Notes under the pieces: generated by a model
Told to the model about the DNA's origin: nothing
Seen by the model: the letters and a program-made list of their open reading frames with translations, nothing else
Database searches by the model: none
Origin: a virus
Direction: 5' to 3' (one strand)
Virus record (IMG/VR): IMGVR_UViG_3300046824_000111
Coordinates: 1-49,711 of that record
DNA length: 49,711 nt
Shown here: piece after piece, positions 1-39,170 of the stretch
Layout: every line of letters begins with the position of its first letter
Position numbering within the stretch: the first letter of the stretch is position 1
Position numbers and translations under genes: made by a program

Positions 1-602
1 ACAACCCTTTGTGTGAAGGCTGCCGCAATAGGTCTAAGAGGGAATTGAATCTTCTCCGCTATGACTATGTGGACCTTTCGCAGCTCATTGCTAAATCGGG
101 TGGGTTGTCGGAGGCGAAGATTTCCCGGCCGAAGCCGGAGAGCTCCCCGACGGTGGACCTGAGCATCCTCACTCTGCGTAGCGAGATTTGGGGTACGGCG
201 GCGTGGGCGGAGAACGCCCTGCGGACCCACCTGGGGATGCTCCGGGTGCCGACGAAGGTTCGGGAGGGCTACGGGCTCTCTGACGCCGTTTTCTACCTGG
301 AGCCTCGGGTGGATGCCCTGGCGCGGATGCCGGCCGTTGACGGGGATCTGAGCGGGGCGGAGCTGCTGTTGATGCTGGGGGAGCTGCATCGGCGGGCCCG
401 GCGGGTTTGTGGACTGGATCCGAGAACCATTCAGGTTCCGGGGTGGTGCCCTTCATGTTCGGTGCCGTCTTTGCGCCGCCATGACGACGACCCGGAGCGG
501 GTGTGGTGCGCGGCCTGCAACCTGCAACTTGCAAAGGAGGACTACTACGCGGCTCAGCGGATGCAATTTGCGCCCGTAACCCCGGCGTCGGAGGCTCGTT
601 GA
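1..602 (+). CDS. Zinc-binding protein of unknown function, 3' part of a gene that wraps across the window ends
   Basis: The reading frame is open from base 3. Because the window is a closed circle, the real start is the ATG at 49459; the wrapped product is about 224 residues. The N-terminal part (at the far end of the window) carries two Cys pairs around a short loop, ending CEGC at bases 12-23. The C-terminal third has a second ribbon, WCPSCS followed about 20 residues later by WCAAC. This looks like a protein with two zinc ribbons flanking a helical middle. It follows the putative replication protein with an ATGA overlap, so it belongs to the same early operon. Function is not recognised; nucleic-acid binding is an inference from the Cys pairs. 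Confidence 0.8.
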   Translation, partial: NPLCEGCRNRSKRELNLLRYDYVDLSQLIAKSGGLSEAKISRPKPESSPTVDLSILTLRSEIWGTAAWAENALRTHLGMLRVPTKVREGYGLSDAVFYLEPRVDALARMPAVDGDLSGAELLLMLGELHRRARRVCGLDPRTIQVPGWCPSCSVPSLRRHDDDPERVWCAACNLQLAKEDYYAAQRMQFAPVTPASEAR

Positions 603-661
603 GACCTGCAATGGCGCACACCCGGGTACCACTTGGGCGCCATTGATTGAATGGAGTTCAT

Positions 662-970
662 GTGGCTACCCTGAGAGCAGCCGACATTACCTACAGTGAG
701 GAGAGCGTGTATGCAAGTAGGACCGTCTGCATCCGCTGCCGCCGCCCCGTCCTGTGGATGATCACCAACCGCAGTGGACAACCACTCCCGTTCGACCCCC
801 ACGCGCTGCCCGTCATCTACGACGCGCAGCACACCGGCTGGGCGCCCGGAATGTTCCCCATCGGCGGTAGGCAACGCCGGTGCATGGCCCCCTGGACCGA
901 ATTCCCGGCGCACCGGCGTGCATCGATCGCCAACGTCCTCACCCTGCACACCTGTCGGAGAGCGGCATGA
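662..970 (+). CDS. Small CxxC protein, unknown function
   Basis: A 102-residue protein. The GTG at 662 is chosen because GGAG lies about 5 bases upstream; GTG 707 is an alternative with a poorly spaced AGGAG. The N-terminal half has a CIRC motif followed by RRPVLW and further on single Cys residues (RRCMAPW, HTC), so one zinc site is possible. It ends inside the start of the next gene, suggesting translational coupling. No family recognised. Confidence 0.65.
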   Translation: MATLRAADITYSEESVYASRTVCIRCRRPVLWMITNRSGQPLPFDPHALPVIYDAQHTGWAPGMFPIGGRQRRCMAPWTEFPAHRRASIANVLTLHTCRRAA

Positions 971-1188
971 AATTCCCCATCAGACTCGCCACACTCCTCG
1001 CCGGGATCGCCTGGATCGCCACCGGGATCACCGCGCTCATCACCAAGGACTACCTGCTCGCCCTCGTAGCCCTATCCAGCGTCGGCTACTGCTTCCAGAT
1101 CGCCATCCACCTGCGTGAAGAAGACCGCCTGCGCCGCCTCATCCACCAAAGCCAAACCCGCACCGACAAGAAAGACCCGCACCTGTGA
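967..1188 (+). CDS. Small membrane protein (two TM segments)
   Basis: 73 residues, starting at an ATG that overlaps the preceding stop by four bases. Two hydrophobic segments (about residues 5-25 and 30-48) are followed by a charged Arg/Lys/Asp tail, predicting an inner-membrane hairpin with a cytoplasmic C-terminus. The following gene starts on its GTGA. The pair may act together at the membrane, but no function is recognised. Confidence 0.7.
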   Translation: MKFPIRLATLLAGIAWIATGITALITKDYLLALVALSSVGYCFQIAIHLREEDRLRRLIHQSQTRTDKKDPHL

Positions 1189-1436
1189 ACAGCCGCCACT
1201 TCCCCGTCATCTACTGGGCGCCCCTAGCAAGCGTCTGGATCGCACTGAGCGCCCTCGCCGCCATCTCCGGCGACCCGTACCTGGCAGCCGCCGCCCTCGC
1301 CGGCTTGGGACTGCTGATCCTGTCGGTGCGCCTCGATGTCGTTCAGCGGCGCCGCTACTCGAGTCTCGCTGCCACCGTCAGTCACATCGACGCCAAAGTG
1401 GAGGCCACCCGGAGGTACTCCCGTGATCGGCACTGA
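1185..1436 (+). CDS. Small membrane protein (two TM segments)
   Basis: 83 residues with a GTG start overlapping the previous stop. Hydrophobic stretches at about residues 8-28 and 32-50 are followed by a basic RRRY segment and a short amphipathic tail. It resembles its upstream neighbour in plan (two TMs then a charged tail), so the two may form a hetero-oligomer or be ancient paralogues. Function unknown. Confidence 0.65.
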   Translation: MNSRHFPVIYWAPLASVWIALSALAAISGDPYLAAAALAGLGLLILSVRLDVVQRRRYSSLAATVSHIDAKVEATRRYSRDRH

Positions 1437-1710
1437 CCTGGCCATGCCGGTGCAGACAGCCTACGAAGACCGCACCGGTTTGGTCTACGAACTCGAAGAC
1501 GGCGGCGTCTACTTCTACAAGCCCGCCGCTGTGTTCTTCGTCGACGGGATCCGCTACGACCCCCACCGGCGGGGGAAATGGTCGCGGCCGATGCTGGAAA
1601 TCTTCGACGACGACAATTGCGGCGGATTCACCTCCATGGTTTTCTCCACCCCGATGAGTGAAGCCGACCTCGACGCGTGGGTGGGGTTACGTGGGTGGGG
1701 TTATGAGTGA
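1423..1710 (+). CDS. Unknown protein, first of a tandem paralogue pair
   Basis: 95 residues. The GTG at 1423 is chosen because GGAGG at 1411-1415 sits seven bases upstream. The sequence has a tyrosine-rich first half (YELEDGGVYFYKP), then FFVDGIRY, RPMLEIF and a final SEADLDAWV. The next gene repeats the same order of motifs (FIVDGIS, RPMIELVY, TDAELDRYV), so the two are diverged copies. No known domain recognised. Confidence 0.7.
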   Translation: MIGTDLAMPVQTAYEDRTGLVYELEDGGVYFYKPAAVFFVDGIRYDPHRRGKWSRPMLEIFDDDNCGGFTSMVFSTPMSEADLDAWVGLRGWGYE

Positions 1711-1942
1711 CGAACTGCGCTACCGGTTCCACAACGACCTGCGGTATTACGGCGCCTACAACCCGTTCATCGTCGACGGGATCTCCTGCAGCCGCTACGC
1801 AGACGGCGGGGTCAACACCGTCCGACCCATGATTGAGCTCGTGTACTCCGGCAGCGACCCCGCCGAAATGTTCCACTCCGACCCGCCTACCGACGCCGAA
1901 CTCGACCGGTACGTGTGGCACGGCATCCTCCCCTCCACCTGA
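1703..1942 (+). CDS. Unknown protein, second of a tandem paralogue pair
   Basis: 79 residues, starting at the ATG at 1703 that overlaps the end of the preceding paralogue. Shares the FxVDGI, RPMxE and (S/T)xAxLDxxV motifs with it, in the same order and spacing. Small acidic soluble protein without Cys pairs or TM segments. Function unknown. Confidence 0.7.
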   Translation: MSDELRYRFHNDLRYYGAYNPFIVDGISCSRYADGGVNTVRPMIELVYSGSDPAEMFHSDPPTDAELDRYVWHGILPST

Positions 1943-1955
1943 AAGGACCCCAGCC

Positions 1956-3278
1956 ATGGGATCAAGACTTGCCGATAGTGAACAGCTCGCAGACCGGTGC
2001 CGCCGGGCCGGGTGGCGTGTCGAAACATCCCCAGCCGGCAAAGGCTACAAAGTGTGGGCCCCCAACGGGAAAATCCATCCGATCCACCTCACCTACTCCG
2101 CCATCGGCAGCCTCAACCGGTGCCGCGAAGGGCTCGAAAAGGCCGGGCTGCTCGAAGCGGAAAAGGCCATCGCCAACGCCCGGCTCACCGAATCCCGCTC
2201 CCGCATGGATGTCGCCCGGGAAGTCGCCGAAAACCTCGCCAAGAAGATGGCCAACGGCACCAGCATCGCCCGAGCCGCCGGGCCGTACCTGACCGACGCC
2301 GAAGAAGTACCCGTCGACTGGTTTACCACCCCACACCCGAAACCCTGGATGCGGTGGGCGTACATCACCCCCGCCATCGCCGCCAAGATTTTGAAAGACC
2401 ACAACGGAGACAACCGGCCCCTCGACCCGGCCACCGTCCAGTGGTACCGCGACATTATTCTCGCCGGCATGTGGCACCTCACCCACCAAGGGTGGGCGTT
2501 CGACACCCGCGGCCTGCTCCAAGACGGACAACACCGGGCGGCTGCCATCGTCGACGCCGGTGAACTGTCCGAAGAACCCATCCAAGTACCCTGCGCCGTC
2601 TTCGTCGGAATGCCCGAAGAAAACTTCAAAGCCATCGACGAAGGCCGACTACGCAACGCCCGGCAGCTCTTCGCCAAAGGCGGCGAAAAGTATGCGTCAC
2701 CGATGCAGACAGTGGTACGGCTCGTCTACTACCTCAACGACGTCGACGCCCGCCGCGCCTCCCGGCTGCGCCTACCCAACCAGGTAGTCCTGGATCTGTT
2801 CGAAACAGACCCGGACGCCTACCGCACCAGCGTCCAATACGGCGCCATGAACTACCGGAAAATCCCCGGCATCTCCAACCCGGCACTCGGCGCCGCCCAC
2901 TACCTGATCCGCCGGGTCAACGGCAACAACAACGCCTACGTCGAACAGTTCTTCGATGCGATCACCTCCGGGCTCATCCCCGGAACCCGCATGATCCTCA
3001 ACGACGACGACCCCCGCACAGCGCTGCGTTCCCGGATGCAAGGCATCAAAGACGCCGTCGCCGGGGGCCGCAAAGGCGAACGGCGCAGCTCCCTATCCCA
3101 AGTCGGCATGGTGATCGCCACCTGGAACAACACCGTCATGGGCCGCCACATCCGCAAGCTGTACTTCAACGAAGACACCACCATCCCCACCGTGCTGAAA
3201 TGTCTCCCCGGTGACGGCGGCGTCCCCGACATGTTCCTCTCCCCGGCCGCCATCGAGAACATGGCCGCCGACGTATGA
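1956..3278 (+). CDS. ParB/sulfiredoxin-like DGQHR-domain protein with HicA-like N-terminus
   Basis: 440 residues; ATG at 1956 after GAAAGGA. Residues about 8-60 (LADRCRRAGWRVE, GKGYKVWAPNGK, IHLTYS) resemble the compact double-stranded-RNA-binding-like fold of HicA toxins. After a helical linker, residues about 140-215 form a ParB/Srx-type domain with the LLQDGQHR motif around residue 190. The C-terminal half is helical (MQTVVRLVYYLNDVD, QFFDAITSGL). DGQHR proteins are frequent in phages and are thought to act in DNA transactions or modification. The HicA-like reading rests on pattern only. It is the largest gene of the distal early operon. Confidence 0.75.
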   Translation: MGSRLADSEQLADRCRRAGWRVETSPAGKGYKVWAPNGKIHPIHLTYSAIGSLNRCREGLEKAGLLEAEKAIANARLTESRSRMDVAREVAENLAKKMANGTSIARAAGPYLTDAEEVPVDWFTTPHPKPWMRWAYITPAIAAKILKDHNGDNRPLDPATVQWYRDIILAGMWHLTHQGWAFDTRGLLQDGQHRAAAIVDAGELSEEPIQVPCAVFVGMPEENFKAIDEGRLRNARQLFAKGGEKYASPMQTVVRLVYYLNDVDARRASRLRLPNQVVLDLFETDPDAYRTSVQYGAMNYRKIPGISNPALGAAHYLIRRVNGNNNAYVEQFFDAITSGLIPGTRMILNDDDPRTALRSRMQGIKDAVAGGRKGERRSSLSQVGMVIATWNNTVMGRHIRKLYFNEDTTIPTVLKCLPGDGGVPDMFLSPAAIENMAADV

Positions 3279-4033
3279 AAGGAACCTGGCCGTTCCCCGG
3301 GGACTCGCCAGTGGCCCGCGCTCGGAAAATGTGCGGCGCATACCGCCAGGTCGCCCAACAGCAACACCAGGCCGCCTGCGAACTCCGGGACGCCTACCTC
3401 AACCAGCACAAAGCGGCGGCGGCACTACGCGAAGCCCTCGACAAAGCCGACACCCGACTGTTGTCCTACGACAGCCCCGCCACCCTGGAACTGATCAAAA
3501 AAGCGTTGAAGGAACTCGACGCCGAGCAGATCCCCGCCGCATTCGACCCCACCGACCCGGTAGCCGAACTCGACGAAAGGTTCTCCTCCTGGGGGGAGTC
3601 CTTTCACGCCGAACAGGTTGACCACTACGAGATGGACGACTGGGTGAAAGCCTCCGTCGCCGCCAGCCTCATCCACGTCTCCCACAAAACCATCAACACT
3701 CTGCGGATCCAAGGCAGGATCAAAGGGCAGTGGCATCAAACGCTGGGCCCGTCCGGCGGCTACCTCTACCTTGTCGCCGACGTCTACAAGCTTTCGGAGA
3801 CCCTCCGCAGCCGAACCTGGCAAAAAAAACCTACCGTAGATACCCTCAACGACAGCGGGAGAGGTGACTCCAAATCGCCCCCAGAGGACGCGAAAGCTGG
3901 CCCCGACACCAGTGGCACCCCGCCTACGAGAGTTTTAAAGATTGGCTCGACGGCGAAGCGCCCCAACCGGCGCCCCCTCGCAAAAAGACCCCGCCGGCCA
4001 AAACCCGCCGACCCGCCCCCGGAGACTGAATGA
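3275..4033 (+). CDS. Coiled-coil and helix-turn-helix DNA-binding protein
   Basis: 252 residues, ATGA overlap with the DGQHR gene. Residues 20-90 are Gln/Ala-rich and helical (coiled coil likely). Residues about 120-175 carry an excisionase/MerR-like winged helix: DDWVKASVAASLIHVSHKTI, RIQGRIKGQW, then GGYLYLVADVYKL. The last 60 residues are basic and Pro-rich, suited to non-specific DNA contact. Its position suggests a regulator or partner of the ParB-like protein. A recombination directionality factor is a conceivable but unsupported alternative. Confidence 0.7.
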   Translation: MKGTWPFPGDSPVARARKMCGAYRQVAQQQHQAACELRDAYLNQHKAAAALREALDKADTRLLSYDSPATLELIKKALKELDAEQIPAAFDPTDPVAELDERFSSWGESFHAEQVDHYEMDDWVKASVAASLIHVSHKTINTLRIQGRIKGQWHQTLGPSGGYLYLVADVYKLSETLRSRTWQKKPTVDTLNDSGRGDSKSPPEDAKAGPDTSGTPPTRVLKIGSTAKRPNRRPLAKRPRRPKPADPPPETE

Positions 4034-4224
4034 CGATGGGCCCGTGGCGGTGGATGCTCGTCAACCTGGCCATAGCCGCTCCGATCGCTTACGCCGGTGC
4101 CTACTTCCTCAGCCCGCCGCTGGGCGAATGGCAGGCATCCGCCATCGGGTTCCTGTGCGCCGTCCTCGCCATCGAATACGTCGACCACCGCCGTGACATC
4201 CACGACAGACGGAAGAAACCATGA
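4030..4224 (+). CDS. Small membrane protein (two TM segments)
   Basis: 64 residues, ATGA overlap with the preceding gene. Two hydrophobic helices (about residues 8-27 and 34-50), then a charged tail EYVDHRRDIHDRRKKP. Likely inserted as a hairpin with the basic tail in the cytoplasm. No family recognised. Confidence 0.7.
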   Translation: MTMGPWRWMLVNLAIAAPIAYAGAYFLSPPLGEWQASAIGFLCAVLAIEYVDHRRDIHDRRKKP

Positions 4225-4451
4225 ACGACAACGACGACGTAGCCATGCAAAACAGGTGCGTGAAGTGTCTGACGGAGCATTACGCGTTCGCCGTCATCGC
4301 CGTCTCCTACGGCGAGATCGCCTGCCCCCACTGCGAACACCTGTCGAAGCGGATGACCAGGGAGGAATACTACGAAGCCCTGAGCAAAGCCCGGGAGGCC
4401 CGACAGGAGCGGTGGATGACCCCACCCCGGCAACGACGAGGCTCCGAATGA
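4221..4451 (+). CDS. Zinc-ribbon protein
   Basis: 76 residues, ATGA overlap. CVKC near residue 13 and CPHC near residue 35 make a classical four-Cys zinc ribbon; the C-terminal half is a charged helix (MTREEYYEALSKAREAR). Likely a small nucleic-acid-binding or adaptor protein. Function not assigned. Confidence 0.75.
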   Translation: MNDNDDVAMQNRCVKCLTEHYAFAVIAVSYGEIACPHCEHLSKRMTREEYYEALSKAREARQERWMTPPRQRRGSE

Positions 4452-4651
4452 CCCGCGACCGGATGTGCGGGCGATACCCGACGGCGAAAGGCTACGACCC
4501 GTACTGTCCCGTCTGCACCCGGCTCGGGGAGCTCGCCCAGGAATGGGACTGCACCAGCGACTACGCCGACGTCGAAGCCCTCCGCGAACCCATCCTCGCC
4601 CAAGCCGACCGGACCACCCGCATTCACCGGGCATACCGCCGCCGGCAATAG
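4448..4651 (+). CDS. Small Cys-containing protein
   Basis: 67 residues, ATGA overlap with the zinc-ribbon gene. Contains MCGRYP, CPVC and a later WDC, consistent with one zinc site, and a C-terminal basic helix ending HRAYRRRQ. A GC-rich imperfect inverted repeat follows at about 4650-4695, possibly ending or attenuating this transcript. Confidence 0.65.
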   Translation: MTRDRMCGRYPTAKGYDPYCPVCTRLGELAQEWDCTSDYADVEALREPILAQADRTTRIHRAYRRRQ

Positions 4652-4717
4652 GCTCTCCCGCCCGCCGTCCTCCACCGTCGTAGGGCGGGAGCCGCAGCCG
4701 GGGGAGGGGGCACGCTA

Positions 4718-5071
4718 GTGGTGACCACACGCCCACTCAAGCCGTGCACCTCCCCCGGCTGCCCCAGCCGGGTCACCGGCGGCCGATGCCCCCGACACCA
4801 GAAACTTGCCGGGCAGCAACGAACCCACTGGCGCCAAATCTACGGCGACGACTGGCCCCGCATCCGCCTCGAATACCTCACCCGGAATCCCTGGTGTGCA
4901 CTGTGCGGCCGAATGGCCTCCGTCGCCGACCACCACCCCCGCGGCATTCACCTGCTCAACAAGCAGCGCAACCCCGACCCCCACGCAGACCGGCACCTGC
5001 GGCCCCTGTGCGCCTCCTGTCACTCCACAGAGACCGGGAAACACCAGCCCGGCGGATGGAACGCCCGCTAG
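4718..5071 (+). CDS. HNH endonuclease
   Basis: 117 residues with a GTG start. The N-terminus has CTSPGC and CPRH (a small zinc knuckle); the core is WCALCGRMASVADH, RHLRPLCASCHSTETGK, the beta-beta-alpha metal HNH signature with CxxC pairs. Such proteins nick or cut DNA; next to terminase genes they assist packaging in many HK97-like phages. Here the gene is about 7.6 kb upstream of TerS at the end of the early operon, so a packaging role is possible but not implied by adjacency. It converges on the next, leftward gene with a four-base overlap. Confidence 0.85.
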   Translation: MVTTRPLKPCTSPGCPSRVTGGRCPRHQKLAGQQRTHWRQIYGDDWPRIRLEYLTRNPWCALCGRMASVADHHPRGIHLLNKQRNPDPHADRHLRPLCASCHSTETGKHQPGGWNAR

Positions 5072-5283
5072 ATCAGCTTGATTGTCCTCAGCTTGCCGTC
5101 GGCGGCACCCCTGATGGCGAGCTTGTCACCGGCGGCCTGTGCCTGGCACAACATGTCGTAAATCTGAATCGCCCGGTTCACCGACTCCGTCTTCGTATCC
5201 TCCGTCAACTGGTTCACGTTACGGAGCGCCGCCACCGACTTCGGAGTCAAATTCACAGTCAACCGCGTCAACGGAACAGTCAT
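5068..5283 (-). CDS. Ribbon-helix-helix protein
   Basis: 71 residues from the ATG at 5283. Residues 3-45 (TRLTVNLTPKSVAALRNV, then ESVNRAIQIYDML) match the beta-alpha-alpha ribbon-helix-helix fold of CopG/Arc-type DNA-binding proteins. It stands alone, without an adjacent toxin-like gene, so an orphan antitoxin or a small repressor are both possible. An upstream start at 5307 would add eight residues. Leftward, in the accessory region. Confidence 0.7.
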   Translation of the reverse strand: MTVPLTRLTVNLTPKSVAALRNVNQLTEDTKTESVNRAIQIYDMLCQAQAAGDKLAIRGAADGKLRTIKLI

Positions 5284-12078: not shown

Positions 12079-12479
12079 TCGCCCTGCCCGTCGGCGACAG
12101 AGTCGATGTGCTTTTGGACGGCTTCGGTGGCGGCTTTGGCGGTGGTGAGGCCGACGGAGTACCCGCACCGGCAGTCGGCGCCTACGAGCTCGGTGGTCAT
12201 TCCCTGGGCGTGGCGGAACCGGATGTGGTGGGCGCCGACGACGGGGGTCTTCTGGAGTTCTTCAACGGAGCGCAGGGTGTCTAGTCCGACGCCGATGACG
12301 TAGTTGAGGGCTTCTTCGTAGGTCCAGCCGTGTTGGTGGGCGACGGCCAGGATTTTCTCCTGGTGGGGGGCGCTGAGGTGGGTGTTGCGGTTCCGGCTTT
12401 CGAAGAGGGCTTTGGTGACCCAGTCTTCGTCGCGGTTGGTGCGGGCGTCTTCGGCCCATTCGTCGCCGATCTCGGGCAT
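12075..12479 (-). CDS. Unknown protein with Cys/His C-terminal motif
   Basis: 134 residues; ATG at 12479 after GAAAGAGG. N-terminal half acidic and helical (PHQEKILAVAHQHGWTYEEA, then LNYVIGVGLDTLRSV), resembling an RHH or helical dimer. The C-terminal DCRCGYSVGLTTAKAATEAV followed by QKHIDS has a CxC...A...H pattern related to the small CCHC family found elsewhere in this genome. Divergent from the terminase operon. Confidence 0.6.
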   Translation of the reverse strand: MPEIGDEWAEDARTNRDEDWVTKALFESRNRNTHLSAPHQEKILAVAHQHGWTYEEALNYVIGVGLDTLRSVEELQKTPVVGAHHIRFRHAQGMTTELVGADCRCGYSVGLTTAKAATEAVQKHIDSVADGQGE

Positions 12480-12717
12480 CTGGGGGACCTCTTTCGTCGT
12501 GATGTGTACCGTCCCGGCCTGCGGTGACCCGGTCCCTCGATTGCGTGGAGAGGCTGGGGTGGTGCGGGCCGGGACGGCAGCCCTCGAAGTTCCGCCAAAG
12601 GAAGAGGGCCGACCCATTCTTCCACACCCGGGCGCAACTAGACACCATTGGGTGTTTGGGGCAATTCCCGAATGGTATTCACGTGCCCTCTCACTACTGC
12701 CCGCAAAGGAGACTGTC
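12480..12717. promoter_or_regulatory. Intergenic region upstream of TerS with long inverted repeat
   Basis: 238 bases between the divergent unknown gene and TerS. It holds a 14-bp inverted repeat with one mismatch, CCGTCCCGGCCTGC (12509-12522) and GCGGGCCGGGACGG (12564-12577). This is the usual place for a cos or pac/TerS-binding site and for the late promoter, but no sticky-end sequence can be identified by eye. Confidence 0.45.
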
Positions 12718-13185
12718 ATGCCGTCTGGACGCCCGAGGGGCACCGGCGCCCCCACCGCACTGAAGCTGCTGAAGGGGGAACGCAACGCCCGGCTCAACCA
12801 CGATGAGCCCATCCCCGACGACGGGATACCCGAATGCCCCACCGACGACCCTGACGTCAAGGAAGTGTGGGACTACACCATCGGGCAGCTTCTGCAGATG
12901 CGCACCGTCACCATGGCCGATCGGGATGCCCTGCACACCTACTGCGAGCAGGTGGTGCAGTACCGGCAGGCGGCGCAGATGGTGCGCGAGGATGGGCCCA
13001 TCGTGGAAAGCCGGTTGGGGCCGAAGCGGCATCCGGCGTTGAGCATCATGCGGGAGTCCGCGGCGATTATCAAAATGTTCGGCCGGGACTTCGGGCTGAC
13101 CCCGTCGGCCCGGTCCGCGATCAAGGTGTCCGATCAGCGTCCGAAGCAGACGGAGGCGGGGGCTTCCCGGCTGTTGTCGGGCTAA
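12718..13185 (+). CDS. terS: Terminase small subunit (P27 family)
   Basis: 155 residues; ATG at 12718 with AAAGGAGA upstream. The start MPSGRPRGTGAPTALKLLKG and GERNARLNHDEP is the typical beginning of P27-like small terminases, followed by helices (VWDYTIGQLLQMRTVTMADR), HPALSIMRESAAIIKMFG and the GLTPSARSAI motif near the end. It recognises packaging DNA and recruits TerL. First gene of the late operon; a leftward XRE gene separates it from TerL. Confidence 0.9.
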   Translation: MPSGRPRGTGAPTALKLLKGERNARLNHDEPIPDDGIPECPTDDPDVKEVWDYTIGQLLQMRTVTMADRDALHTYCEQVVQYRQAAQMVREDGPIVESRLGPKRHPALSIMRESAAIIKMFGRDFGLTPSARSAIKVSDQRPKQTEAGASRLLSG

Positions 13186-13499
13186 ACGTTGTCGTCTTCA
13201 ACGTCGTCGCCGCCTACCAGGGCGGCGCTGGTGTATTCGCCGTCGATGATGACGTAGACGCCGAACTCTTGTACCCCGGCACCGTTGCAGTAGAGGGCTA
13301 GTCGGCCAACGGACGGGTTGAGGCCACCTTTGCCGGATTCGAGGTCGGTGGCCCAGGTGCGGCTCATTCCGGCGGCCCGGGACACTTCGCCGGCGCTGAG
13401 GTGGTTGGCTTTGCGGTGGGTGCGGATGGCGTCGATGACTGGCCTGAGCTCTTTATTGAAATCCATCTGTTTTGCCCGTCTCGTCGCTTTCGTTTTCAT
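13182..13499 (-). CDS. XRE-family helix-turn-helix regulator between terS and terL
   Basis: 105 residues from the ATG at 13499 (ATG 13469 would give 95). Residues 25-75 (AIRTHRKANHLSAGEVSRAA, GMSRTWATDLESGKGG, NPSVGRLALYCNG) form an XRE HTH, followed by a beta-rich tail (FGVYVIIDGEYTSAAL) and an acidic end. It is opposite to the flanking terminase genes and converges on terS with a four-base overlap. The operator-like repeat at 13519-13535 lies just upstream of its start. An inserted regulator or moron is likely. Confidence 0.75.
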   Translation of the reverse strand: MKTKATRRAKQMDFNKELRPVIDAIRTHRKANHLSAGEVSRAAGMSRTWATDLESGKGGLNPSVGRLALYCNGAGVQEFGVYVIIDGEYTSAALVGGDDVEDDNV

Positions 13500-13518
13500 C
13501 CGCTCAACGTGAGTGTTG

Positions 13519-13535
13519 GCGTCCAGTGACGTCCA
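13519..13535. repeat. 17-bp operator-like site, copy 2
   Basis: GCGTCCAGTGACGTCCA, one base different from 11016-11032. It sits about 20 bases upstream of the leftward XRE start and about 50 bases before the terL start, so it could control both. Confidence 0.5.
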
Positions 13536-13582
13536 GTGTCGACCATTCACTCGTTCGTGGATCAGGTGTGGGGGGTGAACCC

Positions 13583-16240
13583 ATGCCGAAACGGCTACCT
13601 GCTTGCGGGAAAACCTTCGACGACATGGAATGCACCGAGCGGGGAGACCACACCTGTAAGCCCCGCTCGGCGCACATTCAGGCGTTCTTCTCGGAAATTC
13701 TTGTCCACACCAAGGGCCGCTGGTCGCGGACGCCGTTCCACCTGCTCGACTGGCAGGTGAACGACATTATGGAGCCGCTGTTCGCCGAGGTGACCTGGTC
13801 TACGGAGTCTGAGCGGTATGTCCGTCGTTACCGTCTTGCGTGGATTGAGGTTGCCCGTAAGAACGGCAAGGCGCTCGACGTTGACACCCCCATCCTCACC
13901 GACCGGGGACCGGTACCGATGTGGGACATCCAGGTCGGCGACAAGGTGCACTCCCCGGACGGCAGCCAGGTCCCGGTTATCGCGGTAGGCCCGGTGCATC
14001 GCCGCCAGTCGTACCGGGTGCAGCTCGCCGACGGACGCAGCGTCGTCGCCAGCGACGAGCATGAGTGGCTTGTCATCGACCGGCTGCGCAGCAACAAGGC
14101 CCGCATCGTCACCACCGCCGAACTGATGGCCACCCATCGGTGCGGCGCCCGGGGTGATACCCGCTACCGGGTGCCGGTGCCGAATGAGCTCGACCGTCAA
14201 ACACCCGCCGCCCTGCCCCTGGACCCGTACCTGCTGGGTCTGTGGCTCGGCGACGGCACCACACTCCGCGGCGAGATCACCACCATGGACCCGGAAATTG
14301 TTGCCGCCATCGGCGACGCCGGCTTCCGCACCTCGTACGTCTACCAGCGGGGCCGGGCCGCCACCTACGGCATTCCCGGACTCGGAACCGTTCTCCGCCG
14401 GGTGGGGGTGCTGGGCAACAAGCACGTGCCGGACCTTTATAAGTACGCCGACGCGAAAACCCGGGCGGCTGTCCTCGCCGGGCTGATGGACACCGACGGC
14501 GGTGTAGGTGACGCCGGCAGCGTTCCTCAGGCGGACTTCTGTGGCACCCGGCGTCTCGTCGACGACATGATCTTCCTGGCCCGCTCGTTGGGCTACAAGC
14601 CTGGCCCGGCCCGGCCACACAACGGATCTTGGCGGACGACGTTCAACCCGTGCGTCACCGACGGGGTGTTTCGGCTGCCCCGCAAAAATTCCCGACTGTC
14701 CGCTGAGGCCCGGCAGGGCCGCTCGACCACTATCGCTGTGTCTTCCGTCGAACCTGTCGGTGAGCGGGACGTGCGCTGCATTCAGGTGCAGGGGGGAATG
14801 TTCCTCGCCGGACTGGATTTGGTACCCACCCACAATTCAGAGCTACTGGCTGGTATCGCCCTGTATCTATGCGTAGCGGACGACGAGGACGGGGCCGAAA
14901 TCTACGGCTGCGCCGTCGACCGCGACCAGGCCCGCAAGGTCTACGACGTCGCCGAACGCATGGTCCAGTTGAGTCCACTTCTGAGCTCCCGCCTCAAAAT
15001 CAACAAGCAGGCCAAGCGGATCTACGACACCAGCACCGGCTCCTACTACGAGGCCCTCGCCTCCGACGCCAGCGGCAACCTCGGCCACAACCCCCACGGC
15101 ATCGTCTTCGACGAAGTGCTCACCCAGAAGAACGCCGACCTGTGGAACGCCATGCGCACCGGCATGGGCGCCCGCGACCAGCCGCTGATGGTCGCTGCCA
15201 CCACCGCCGGCGCCGACCCGCAGTCCTTCGGCAAAACCGAACACGACGAGATGCAGAAGATCGCCGACGACCCGGAACGGGCCCGGCACATTTTCGTCTA
15301 CCTGCGGAACCTTCCCATGGACGCCGACCCCTGGGATGAAACCCTGTGGCCCCTCGCCAACCCGGCTCTCGGACAGTTCCTGTCGCTGCAATCACTACGC
15401 GACGAAGCCCAGGAGGCGAAGAACGATCCGGGTAAGGAGAACGCCTTCAGGCAGTTCCGGCTCAACCAGTGGGTGTCGCAGTCATCCAGGTGGATGCCCA
15501 TGCACCTGTGGGATAAGTGCACCGGGGACCTGTGGCTGAACCCGCAGTGGCACAACCGGGAACTACGGGGTCGGACCGCCTATGCGGGGTTTGACCTTGC
15601 AGCTAAATTCGACCTCACTGCATGGGCGCTGGTCATCCCAGGAGACGAGCCGAAAGAGGACCCGGCTCACATCATGTGGCGGTTCTGGCTTCCAGAGTCC
15701 GGACTGGAACGGCTTGATCAGTTTCACGACGGCAAGTTCACCCGGTGGGCCCGTCAAGGTTGGCTGACGGTGACTTCCGGCAGCGTCATCGATTACGACA
15801 AGGTGATCGACGACATAGCCGAGGATGCCAAGGAATACCGCATCGTCGCTGCCGACTGCGATGAGTGGTCCATGTGGCCCATCATCAACCGGATCGGCGA
15901 CGCGTTGAACCTCAGCATCGATGAGGGCGAACTCACCGCATACCGCAACACGTACGATCGCATGAGTCCCGGGATGACAGACCTCATGGGCACCGTCAAA
16001 CGAGGACTGCTGCGGCACCATGGCAACCCGGTTGCCCGCTTCTGTTTCGACCAATGCGAAGTCCGTATGGCGCCTTATGATCCCAACCTCATTCGTCCGG
16101 AGAAACCTGAACGGGCTCGCGACAAAGCCCGTATCGACGCCGTCCCGGCAGCGGCGATGGCCGTCAACGCCTGGAAGAGCCGCGAAGGCGTCGACCAATA
16201 CCGCAGCGCATACGAAGACGGCAACCTCATGGTGATTTGA
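13583..16240 (+). CDS. terL: Terminase large subunit, interrupted by an intein
   Basis: 885-residue precursor from the ATG at 13583 (GTG 13568 is an alternative); 563 residues after splicing. The ATPase Walker A (ARKNGK^S, where ^ marks the intein) is rebuilt on splicing; Walker B is GIVFDEV around 15100-15120, after GNLGHNPH. The nuclease part carries YAGFDLAAKFDLTAWALV and VAADCDEWSM, whose Asp residues fit the RNase H-like metal site. It is the packaging motor: ATP-driven translocation and DNA cutting at the portal. The intein sits between the catalytic Lys and Ser of Walker A, so unspliced protein cannot package. Confidence 0.95.
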   Translation: MPKRLPACGKTFDDMECTERGDHTCKPRSAHIQAFFSEILVHTKGRWSRTPFHLLDWQVNDIMEPLFAEVTWSTESERYVRRYRLAWIEVARKNGKALDVDTPILTDRGPVPMWDIQVGDKVHSPDGSQVPVIAVGPVHRRQSYRVQLADGRSVVASDEHEWLVIDRLRSNKARIVTTAELMATHRCGARGDTRYRVPVPNELDRQTPAALPLDPYLLGLWLGDGTTLRGEITTMDPEIVAAIGDAGFRTSYVYQRGRAATYGIPGLGTVLRRVGVLGNKHVPDLYKYADAKTRAAVLAGLMDTDGGVGDAGSVPQADFCGTRRLVDDMIFLARSLGYKPGPARPHNGSWRTTFNPCVTDGVFRLPRKNSRLSAEARQGRSTTIAVSSVEPVGERDVRCIQVQGGMFLAGLDLVPTHNSELLAGIALYLCVADDEDGAEIYGCAVDRDQARKVYDVAERMVQLSPLLSSRLKINKQAKRIYDTSTGSYYEALASDASGNLGHNPHGIVFDEVLTQKNADLWNAMRTGMGARDQPLMVAATTAGADPQSFGKTEHDEMQKIADDPERARHIFVYLRNLPMDADPWDETLWPLANPALGQFLSLQSLRDEAQEAKNDPGKENAFRQFRLNQWVSQSSRWMPMHLWDKCTGDLWLNPQWHNRELRGRTAYAGFDLAAKFDLTAWALVIPGDEPKEDPAHIMWRFWLPESGLERLDQFHDGKFTRWARQGWLTVTSGSVIDYDKVIDDIAEDAKEYRIVAADCDEWSMWPIINRIGDALNLSIDEGELTAYRNTYDRMSPGMTDLMGTVKRGLLRHHGNPVARFCFDQCEVRMAPYDPNLIRPEKPERARDKARIDAVPAAAMAVNAWKSREGVDQYRSAYEDGNLMVI
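13871..14836 (+). other. Class 3 (WCT) intein with LAGLIDADG homing endonuclease in TerL
   Basis: 322 residues, beginning Ala1 (ALDVDTPILT) rather than Cys/Ser and ending Thr320-His321-Asn322, with Ser as +1 extein residue. Block B has DEHEW (Trp66), block F VRCIQV (Cys303), block G VPTHN (Thr320): the Trp-Cys-Thr triad that defines class 3 inteins, in which the block F Cys attacks first. The endonuclease has LLGLWLGDG (Asp128) and LAGLMDTDG (Asp209), both catalytic Asp present, so it may still be mobile. Class 3 inteins are known in actinophage terminases (for example mycobacteriophage Bethlehem). Confidence 0.92.
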
Positions 16241-16409
16241 CCTCGATGTGCAGGTGCGGGCTGTCGCAGCATTCATCAAACCCGCCGTGGGCCATGCACT
16301 CGTACTGGCCGGAGGTGGGGCAGAAGTAGATGCGGCACTTCATCTCCTCGAAGTGCCGCAGGAGAACCTGAACGTCCTCGTCCTCTTCGAAAAAGTCGTC
16401 GCCGGTCAC
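16227..16409 (-). CDS. Small Cys-rich protein
   Basis: 60 residues; GTG at 16409, AGGTGAACC upstream. Acidic N-terminus (TGDDFFEEDEDVQVLLRHFE) then six Cys and several His (MKCRIYFCP, YECMAHGGFDECC, SPHLHIE), likely a structural zinc site. Last gene of a leftward cassette inserted between terL and portal; its end overlaps the terL 3' end by 14 bases. Confidence 0.6.
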   Translation of the reverse strand: MTGDDFFEEDEDVQVLLRHFEEMKCRIYFCPTSGQYECMAHGGFDECCDSPHLHIEVKSP

Positions 16410-16549
16410 CGGTTCACCTTCCCCCACACAATCACCAGCAGGTACACCCCAGTGATGACAATGACGACCGCGGCGGCGGTGGCGACCAGGCGCAAGTCCA
16501 CCGCCGACAACGCCACCGCCAAACACAGGGCGCACAGCAGCAGGCCCAT
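16406..16549 (-). CDS. Small membrane protein (two TM segments)
   Basis: 47 residues from the ATG at 16549. Almost entirely hydrophobic: GLLLCALCLAVALSAV, a short turn with LRL, then VATAAAVVIVITGVYLLVIV, ending WGKVNR. A holin-like topology, though it lies far from the lysis genes. No Shine-Dalgarno is visible; coupling to the upstream gene is likely. Confidence 0.5.
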   Translation of the reverse strand: MGLLLCALCLAVALSAVDLRLVATAAAVVIVITGVYLLVIVWGKVNR

Positions 16550-16565
16550 GCCGACGAACAGCAGA

Positions 16566-16748
16566 TCAACGACGTCGGACCTTCTTTCGTTTCCGTTCAA
16601 CGGGCGCCGGCTGCGGAATGTGCGGGTTCGCCGTTTCACAGTCGGTGCAGCAGTGCAGGCACTCCACCTGCGGGTGCCGACCCCGGTGCCATGCTGTTGC
16701 CGCCCGAAGTATCTTGTCGAGCTTTTCCGCCCCGGTGAGATCTTCCAT
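16566..16748 (-). CDS. Small Cys-containing basic protein
   Basis: 60 residues starting MEDLTGAEKLDKILRAATAW. ECLHCCTDC gives a compact Cys cluster, and the tail (PVERKRKKVRRR) is strongly basic, so nucleic-acid binding is plausible. Leftward cassette member. Confidence 0.55.
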   Translation of the reverse strand: MEDLTGAEKLDKILRAATAWHRGRHPQVECLHCCTDCETANPHIPQPAPVERKRKKVRRR

Positions 16749-16766
16749 GGGCCCATTCTGCTGGGG

Positions 16767-17027
16767 TCACCGGAAGTCCTTGACGTTGCCGATCAGCCGG
16801 TCCGCTGTCACCTTCGTCGCCGCGCAAGGGATACATAACGGCACTACCCGCTTGCGCAGGATGATCCGGAAAGAGTCGGTGTCGAGCCAACACCAGTGGC
16901 TGCATCCTTTGCACCGGGTTTGGCCGGCAACCTCGAAGTCGGGCTTGCCGTCGTCGACAAGCTGGACAACGACTACAACGCTCACGGCCGGGCACTCCTC
17001 AAGGTCAGCATTTACATCTCTCCGCAT
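16767..17027 (-). CDS. Small zinc-ribbon-like protein
   Basis: 86 residues from the ATG at 17027. Contains TRCKGCSHWCWL and later LCIPCAATK, giving a four-Cys ribbon, preceded by a hydrophobic strand (AVSVVVVVQLVDDGK). Overlaps the upstream gene by 23 bases. Unknown function. Confidence 0.55.
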   Translation of the reverse strand: MRRDVNADLEECPAVSVVVVVQLVDDGKPDFEVAGQTRCKGCSHWCWLDTDSFRIILRKRVVPLCIPCAATKVTADRLIGNVKDFR

Positions 17028-17196
17028 GCTCGGTGGCCCGGCCGTTGACCTGCACCAGGTCCATCGGGGCTTCGACTTCGACCATCCACATGCACCGGGT
17101 GCATTCGATGGCCAGGAACACCGCATGGTCGGTGGCGACCACATCAATAAGGAACTGCGGCTCATGTTCCGGCTCCGGCGACAGCGTGTCAGTCAT
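17005..17196 (-). CDS. CCHC small zinc-finger protein (phage family, copy A)
   Basis: 63 residues from the ATG at 17196. FLIDVVATDHAVFLAIEC, CTRCMW, then about 19 residues and ATEHAERC: the CxxCxW...A(T/M)(D/E)HxxxC arrangement also seen in the adjacent gene and in 45875-46345. Single zinc site predicted. Function unknown; see findings. Confidence 0.62.
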   Translation of the reverse strand: MTDTLSPEPEHEPQFLIDVVATDHAVFLAIECTRCMWMVEVEAPMDLVQVNGRATEHAERCKC

Positions 17197-17380
17197 GGGT
17201 GCACACCTTCGCGTGGTCGGTGGCCTTCCTCGCCAGATCGAACAGGTTGTACGGGGGATCGACCCCGCCGATCCAGTTGCAGACCTTGCACTGGATGACA
17301 AGGAACTCTTTAGCGACGACGACAGCCTGGAAGCCGGTCAGGAAGACCATGCCGACAGGGCCCTCCGGCTCTCCGCTCAT
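17189..17380 (-). CDS. CCHC small zinc-finger protein (phage family, copy B)
   Basis: 63 residues from the ATG at 17380. AVVVAKEFLVIQCKVCNW then ARKATDHAKVCTHD repeats the CxxCxW...ATxHxxxC signature of its neighbour, so the two are tandem paralogues. Starts overlap neighbouring genes, supporting expression as an operon. Confidence 0.62.
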   Translation of the reverse strand: MSGEPEGPVGMVFLTGFQAVVVAKEFLVIQCKVCNWIGGVDPPYNLFDLARKATDHAKVCTHD

Positions 17381-37535: not shown

Positions 37536-37754
37536 ATGACCTGGGAAGAAGCCTTCGCGTACGTCGACTCCGTAATCGAGCAGGAGTGCGCGGAACAAGG
37601 CATCACCGTCGCCATCACCGACCCGGTCATCCTCGCGCTATCCATCAACCTGATGGGCATCGGCAAACGTAACCACGACGCGCCTCTGGTCAAAGCGGGG
37701 CCCACACCTGCCCGAAGGAAGAACCGTAGCCCTCGCAATGTGCGCACCCACTAG
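37536..37754 (+). CDS. Small protein convergent with integrase
   Basis: 72 residues from the ATG at 37536, overlapping the 3' end of the leftward integrase by 117 bases. The first 45 residues (TWEEAFAYVDSVIEQECAEQ, GITVAITDPVILALSINLMG) look like a genuine compact domain; the tail is Arg-rich. Little Shine-Dalgarno is visible and a leaderless mRNA is possible. Function unknown. Confidence 0.45.
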   Translation: MTWEEAFAYVDSVIEQECAEQGITVAITDPVILALSINLMGIGKRNHDAPLVKAGPTPARRKNRSPRNVRTH

Positions 37755-39170
37755 CTTCCGCTGCTGGGTCAAGGCGAGAGCCTCGAACCACCCGTGCAGG
37801 TCGTCATAGTCGCGCCCGACTGGGTGGGGGACGGCCATCCGCTGAGTTAAGGATTTGATCAAGCCCTTGGCCTGATCGTGCCGCTCGTGTACCGGCTTCT
37901 TCAAGCTCAGATATTCCCGGAGCGACATCCGGTTCGCCTTATCCTTGTACGCCTCTTCGAGTTCCAGCAGCTCACCCTCACAGAGATCCAGTTCGGCGCC
38001 GACCTGCTTGATCTGTTCGTGCAGCCCCACCTCGCTAGACATCGTCGCCCCGAACTCCCGGGTCTGAATCAATCGGCGGAAGATCCGCGCGATAACCAGC
38101 TTGTCCACCGGCCCCGCCAAAACGCCGAGCCTCCCGCATGACCCGCGCTGCTTGGCCTCCAACCCTGAGGAACAGGCATAGCCGGGTTTCGCAACCCTCA
38201 CCCCACCTGTCGCCTTGATCTTTCGCTGAGCTCCCTTCAAGGGCCGCTTGCATATTCCGCACAGCAGCACTTCGGTCAGCAGGTATTTGTTGTTGGGACC
38301 GCGCGGCTTGGTTCGCTTCTTCCCAACCTTCAGCAGCTCCCACGTGGCCCGCTCAAGGACCGGCTCCCACGTAGCATCCGCAGTGTCGTACGTCTTCACG
38401 CCCGTCTCCTCGTCCACCACGCTGAATATCTGCTGGCCGACCATTCGCGGGTTCGTCAGAACCTTCTCCAGAGTCGTAGGACTCCAGGGGGCACCGCTCG
38501 CCCCATAGATCGGCGGCGACCTCGAATGCCAATCGCGAACAATATCCGCGTACGACTCCCCGGCGACGATCCGCTCCGCCGCTTCCCGGAGGTTCTCCAC
38601 CTCCTCGGGTATATGGGCAATTCCGGGGCGCCCGGGGTTCAACAACTTCTTCTTCTGGTCGCGCTTGGCGCCCTCAAAGCCGTAGGGACGCCTCCCGCCT
38701 TGATACGTGCCTTTCTCTCTCCGCAGGCCCGAGTTCGCCTTGATGCGGATCTTCATGTTGCGAATTTCCTTCTCCGCCATCATGACGTTGAACTCCATCA
38801 GGAAGCGCTGGTCCTCGTTGTCGCTACGGTGCCTTTCGTCGGCGCTGATGATAACCGCGCGGCCCTTGCGAGCCGCCCGGATACAGCGATGCCATTCACT
38901 GCTCAGTCGGGTCAGTCGGTCAACGCGGTAGACCACAACGCCTGCGTAAAGCCCCGCCGCAAGATCCACCAGCATCTGCTCGTACTCCTCGCGCCAGACG
39001 GCTTCGTCGGCGGCGGTGACGTTCGGGTCGTCGAACCACCTGCCGATGACTTCGCCGTCAGCCTCCGTGCACTTGACGATGCTCTTCGTCTGCACCTCCG
39101 TCCCAAGCTTGTCGCCGTCGCGGTCATTGGAGAGCCGGCGGTAGCCGCAATACGGCCTTGAGCTGGGCAT
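37638..39170 (-). CDS. int: Large serine integrase
   Basis: 510 residues. The ATG at 39170 has AGGAGG seven bases upstream. Resolvase domain residues 1-150 with nucleophile Ser14 (YRRLSNDRDG) and VVYRVDRLTR; recombinase domain (GRRPYGFEGAKRD, SPTTLEKVLTNPRMVG) about 180-290; zinc ribbon (LLCGICKRPLKGA ... CSSGLEAKQRGSC) about 320-375; coiled coil (IKQVGAELDLCEGELLELEE) about 405-450. Directional integration and excision with an accessory factor. The attP lies 39 bases upstream. Confidence 0.95.
   Translation of the reverse strand: MPSSRPYCGYRRLSNDRDGDKLGTEVQTKSIVKCTEADGEVIGRWFDDPNVTAADEAVWREEYEQMLVDLAAGLYAGVVVYRVDRLTRLSSEWHRCIRAARKGRAVIISADERHRSDNEDQRFLMEFNVMMAEKEIRNMKIRIKANSGLRREKGTYQGGRRPYGFEGAKRDQKKKLLNPGRPGIAHIPEEVENLREAAERIVAGESYADIVRDWHSRSPPIYGASGAPWSPTTLEKVLTNPRMVGQQIFSVVDEETGVKTYDTADATWEPVLERATWELLKVGKKRTKPRGPNNKYLLTEVLLCGICKRPLKGAQRKIKATGGVRVAKPGYACSSGLEAKQRGSCGRLGVLAGPVDKLVIARIFRRLIQTREFGATMSSEVGLHEQIKQVGAELDLCEGELLELEEAYKDKANRMSLREYLSLKKPVHERHDQAKGLIKSLTQRMAVPHPVGRDYDDLHGWFEALALTQQRKLVGAHIARATVLPSGRCGPRFDQRRVVVTFADAHQVDG

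Follow-up and report, generated by a model that had tools for sequence, protein, structure and literature searches.

Inteins in the large terminase (TerL) genes of mycobacteriophages were catalogued by Kelley et al. in 2016 (PMC5050341). One of these is TerL1-a, inserted after the invariant P-loop Lys and before the Thr that follows it, which the authors regard as a classic P-loop insertion. A TerL intein that is 39.9% identical to TerL1-a is found in a Kocuria prophage (PMC5050341). Five TerL inteins other than TerL1-a, including Baka TerL1-b and Bethlehem TerL1-c, were assayed and all spliced; the Baka and Bethlehem inteins also cut empty sites (PMC5050341). Class 3 inteins are defined by a W/C/T triplet, the block F Cys being the first nucleophile (PMC5050341; PMC7664689; PMC7891396), and a Cys-His-Thr triad is seen in the structure of MchDnaB1 (PMC7664689). 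A total of 1701 class 3 inteins have been reported, 82.5% of them with LAGLIDADG motifs (PMC7891396).

We analyzed a stretch of viral DNA of 49,711 nucleotides (IMG/VR record IMGVR_UViG_3300046824_000111), here called the window. The TerL Walker A motif of this uncultivated tailed phage, which encodes a serine integrase, is almost certainly interrupted by a cis-splicing intein of class 3 that also contains a homing endonuclease of the LAGLIDADG type. Splicing, cleavage, and a recent gain are the parts of this reading that we infer.

Extent and insertion point of the intein

The TerL frame is open throughout, from the ATG at 13583 to the stop codon ending at 16240 on the + strand (885 residues), and is divided as follows.

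13583..13870, + strand: N-extein of the large terminase, 96 aa (MPKRL...EVARKNGK), ending at the Walker A Lys; frame open
13871..14836, + strand: class 3 (WCT) intein, 322 aa, HINT domain with an inserted LAGLIDADG endonuclease
14837..16240, + strand: C-extein of the large terminase, beginning with the Walker A Ser (+1) and containing the remaining ATPase domain and the nuclease domain

The intein corresponds to terminase residues 97-418 and is inserted exactly between the Walker A Lys and Ser (ARKNGK before it, SELLAG after it). A C-extein search of IMG/VR recovered many relatives, 21 of which (L004-L024) have C-exteins 68-96% identical to that of the window. All 21 lack the insert and read ARKNGK followed directly by SE, L or I, and LAG; therefore, excision of exactly 322 codons restores a normal P-loop. 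Because these relatives have empty sites, the N-terminal boundary of the intein was set at Ala1. The nearest of them is L011, with a C-extein 96% identical and the same MPKRL start. These results bear out the first-pass annotation, which had described a 322-residue intein at 13871-14836, beginning with Ala and placed precisely between GK and S, and which had suggested looking for intein-free homologs with a matching P-loop. The placement, between the P-loop Lys and Ser of a terminase_1-type TerL with empty sites in relatives, is of the TerL1-a type, and three other loci (L025, L028, and L092) bear inteins at the identical point after GK.

One IMG/VR contig, L003, is identical at its positions 1-5104 to window positions 12253-17356, over 5104 bases. 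It may come from the same virus or sample, and its identity means that the only further copy of this exact intein that was found is the same sequence. When viral contigs were queried with the single protein, only the identical L003 was returned, and a query with an alignment was needed. A 412-aa antisense open frame (window 13595-14833, − strand) lies opposite the N-extein and intein and is probably a chance product of GC-rich DNA.

Class 3 signature and predicted splicing pathway

We aligned 167 inteins, drawn from named phages as well as from related loci of viruses and bacteria; the set is biased towards relatives of the window intein. Position 1 is Ala in the window intein and in 126 of the 167. 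The first-pass annotation had named a conventional Cys1 nucleophile as grounds for doubting its class assignment; Cys is absent among the position-1 residues listed for this alignment. It had also placed the class-defining residues at Trp66, Cys303, and Thr320, where they indeed lie, in near-invariant columns.

14060..14068, + strand: block B His64-Glu65-Trp66; H and W each in 166 of 167 rows, with one gap
14777..14779, + strand: block F branch cysteine Cys303 (F:4); C in 167 of 167 rows
14828..14836, + strand: block G Thr320-His321-Asn322 (Thr at G:5); T in 166, H in 162, and N in 167 of 167 rows

His64 is at B:10 and Trp66 at B:12, and His64 is presumed to be the His of the Cys-His-Thr triad. 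Judged by these residues (Ala1, WCT, and the B:10 His), the window intein belongs to class 3.

After translation, Cys303 would attack the peptide bond between Lys(-1) and Ala1, assisted by His64 and Thr320. The resulting branched thioester would then be transferred to the hydroxyl of the +1 Ser, and cyclization of Asn322, aided by His321, followed by an acyl shift, would release a ligated terminase with a predicted length of 563 residues (885 − 322), the size given by the first-pass annotation.

Fold and endonuclease

An AlphaFold model of the intein, run on alignment A3 (43 rows), has a pLDDT of 95.9 and a pTM of 0.92 and combines a HINT fold with a LAGLIDADG endonuclease. In a Foldseek comparison with the PDB the top match was PI-SceI (E 1.2e-18, query TM 0.79); two DnaB inteins of class 3, 6bs8 and 6rix, matched across the splicing domain (target TM 0.80-0.85, and 0.83-0.85 for 6bs8). 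A profile search also recovered 6rix and 6bs8 (E ~1e-41), as well as the endonuclease of PI-SceI across profile positions 121-265. Pfam matches to Hint_2 and to homing endonucleases were sub-threshold only; thus, family libraries on their own would leave the intein doubtful.

14231..14254, + strand: LAGLIDADG motif 1, LLGLWLGD, residues 121-128; Asp128 column D in 161 of 167 rows
14477..14500, + strand: LAGLIDADG motif 2, AGLMDTDG, residues 203-210; Asp209 column D in 166 of 167 rows

Asp128 is in block C (LWLGDG) and Asp209 in block E (LMDTDGG), and these two acidic LAGLIDADG motifs are those of a homing endonuclease. That both Asp residues are intact had been noted from the start, and the accompanying view that the endonuclease looks functional agrees with the motifs and the predicted fold, both of which appear to be kept. 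The endonuclease domain presumably cleaves intein-free terL genes at the codons for GK and S; since the cut gene would be repaired from the intein-containing copy, the element would spread.

Divergent features of the intein

The window intein has several peculiarities. Its block F turn (CIQV-QGG-MFLAG) is 2 residues shorter than that of the NelitzaMV intein, and the C2:13 His is missing. The same short turn (C-x3-GG) is found in 10 of the 166 other class 3 inteins, including L121, L139, L168, L230, and L250. By alignment, Baka TerL1-b has Gly in place of the C2:13 His, and the Baka intein splices. Relative to NelitzaMV, ~8 residues are deleted from the second half of the endonuclease, in which residues 241-280 are 26-31% identical to TerL1-a relatives. 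Because of this deletion and low identity, we are less sure of endonuclease activity than of splicing.

The same two features would fit an intein that still splices while its endonuclease decays, leaving the element to be passively inherited with no active homing. We consider this unlikely, since the fold is retained along with Asp128, Asp209, and Lys184 of block D, the reading frame is intact, and the empty sites of sister terminases are consistent with a recent arrival.

It is more doubtful still that the intein is a mosaic, with N-terminal two thirds of TerL1-a type and a C-terminal part whose short GG turn is that of a different group of class 3 inteins. The best identity to TerL1-a relatives does drop from 57% over residues 1-210 to ~42% over residues 211-322, but the identity comparison along the intein gave no clear candidate for a second donor, and a DNA-level search of phages with the 3'-terminal 357 bases of the intein gave 0 matches. 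If the intein were a mosaic, its splicing and target range could depart from those of known TerL1-a inteins.

The interrupted terminase

Pfam identified TerL_ATPase and TerL_nuclease domains in the host protein; matches to the C-extein were PF03354 (E 2.3e-13) and PF20441 (E 9.2e-28). Between the C-exteins of the window and L011, dN is 0.035 and dS is 0.64 (dN/dS ~0.05). The large terminase is under strong purifying selection, and therefore the terminase protein has been kept working. For this reason we presume that the intein splices.

This bears on whether the intein is dead and the terminase inactive, as in a defective phage or an assembly chimera. An insert left unspliced between the Walker A Lys and Ser should abolish ATP binding, but every splicing residue is intact, the C-extein is strongly constrained, and 5104 bases of the sequence recur unchanged in another record, L003 (which may come from the same virus or sample), so that we regard a dead intein as highly improbable. 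Even less credible is an intein of class 1 or 2 with a misplaced nucleophile, or a non-splicing HINT domain (a bacterial intein-like domain), for although the absence of an N-terminal Cys or Ser would also suit class 2 or a degenerate intein, the WCT set is complete and near-invariant among the 167 relatives, the terminal His-Asn and +1 Ser are intact, the best splicing-domain structures are class 3 DnaB inteins, and the Ala1 boundary is fixed by the empty sites.

Upstream of the large terminase gene are a small terminase gene (Terminase_4; window 12718-13182) and, between the two, a helix-turn-helix gene (HTH_31; 13185-13550, − strand). Small minus-strand genes likewise lie between the terminase genes of the cluster E mycobacteriophages NelitzaMV and Phrux. 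A serine integrase with Resolvase and Recombinase domains is encoded at 37641-39170 (− strand); thus, the phage is probably temperate.

Distribution and history

The first-pass annotation had stressed that class 3 inteins are the rarest splicing class and are concentrated in actinophages. Judged by class 3 alone, this emphasis is not supported, because 1701 class 3 inteins are known (PMC7891396), because this class at this site is known as TerL1-a, and because the hosts are diverse. The commonest insertion point in the 167-intein alignment, biased as it is towards relatives, is GK followed by S, T, or C (127 of 167), and the bacterial relatives belong to Actinomycetota, Planctomycetota, Nitrospira, Bacillota, Bacteroidota, Chloroflexi, and Proteobacteria, in addition to the phages. 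Escherichia phage MIZ4 (Krischvirus; L086, 493-1485) has a class 3 intein between the terminase P-loop Lys and Thr, where LGK is followed by ALDVNTPIPT.

In the terminase tree the window adjoins the empty L011 and is the sole intein carrier within its clade; carriers are scattered, with 6 changes of state. Other carrier and empty pairs at the same site are L025/L038 and NelitzaMV/Phrux, the latter two having near-identical cluster E terminases (NelitzaMV with the intein between GK and T). The simplest reading of this pattern is that the intein was gained recently in the window lineage, probably by homing. The window has a long tip branch (0.76) and no firm position in the intein tree. In a comparison for a possible co-conversion footprint, the 30-base flanks on each side of the junction are 80-87% like those of L011, slightly below most neighboring bins, but bins of 73%, 77%, and 67% also occur farther out. 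Repeats near the insertion site fell into weak, chance-like families only. The GC content is 67.6% in the intein, 62.2% in the C-extein, and 63.5% in the window; as a sign of foreign origin this composition is not diagnostic, as the NelitzaMV intein is also 67.6% GC.

Comparison with known inteins

The window intein shares the HINT plus LAGLIDADG architecture of PI-SceI (the VMA1 intein), its top Foldseek match, but PI-SceI is a class 1 intein of yeast in a different host gene and is only 19% identical. The splicing-domain fold and the presumed Cys-His-Thr arrangement are like those of MchDnaB1 (6rix) and M. smegmatis DnaB (6bs8); unlike the window intein, these mycobacterial class 3 inteins are endonuclease-less mini-inteins in a cellular helicase. 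Baka TerL1-b, for which splicing and cleavage are experimental (PMC5050341), is also a class 3 intein with a LAGLIDADG endonuclease in the TerL P-loop region, but its reported site is offset by one residue from site a, and it is ~35% identical to the window intein.

The nearest inteins found in named phages are the TerL1-a inteins of cluster E (NelitzaMV, Eureka, Toto, and others). They are in the same gene family and follow the same P-loop Lys; the site occupied in the window is that of the known TerL1-a inteins. Both have A1, W, C, and T, a start of the form ALDV(D/E)TPILT, and a LAGLIDADG endonuclease; identity is 43% by tblastn over the full length and 47-50% in pairwise and multiple alignments. 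The window intein differs in its +1 residue (Ser instead of Thr), its shorter block F turn, and its endonuclease deletion, and it resides in a distinct phage whose terminase C-extein is 47% identical. Because a like insert at the identical spot has already been described in mycobacteriophages, the window intein is an ordinary new example, which leaves what is known of class 3 inteins unchanged. Together with L011 it provides a clean carrier/empty pair from uncultivated phages for work on the homing of class 3 inteins and on packaging that depends on splicing.
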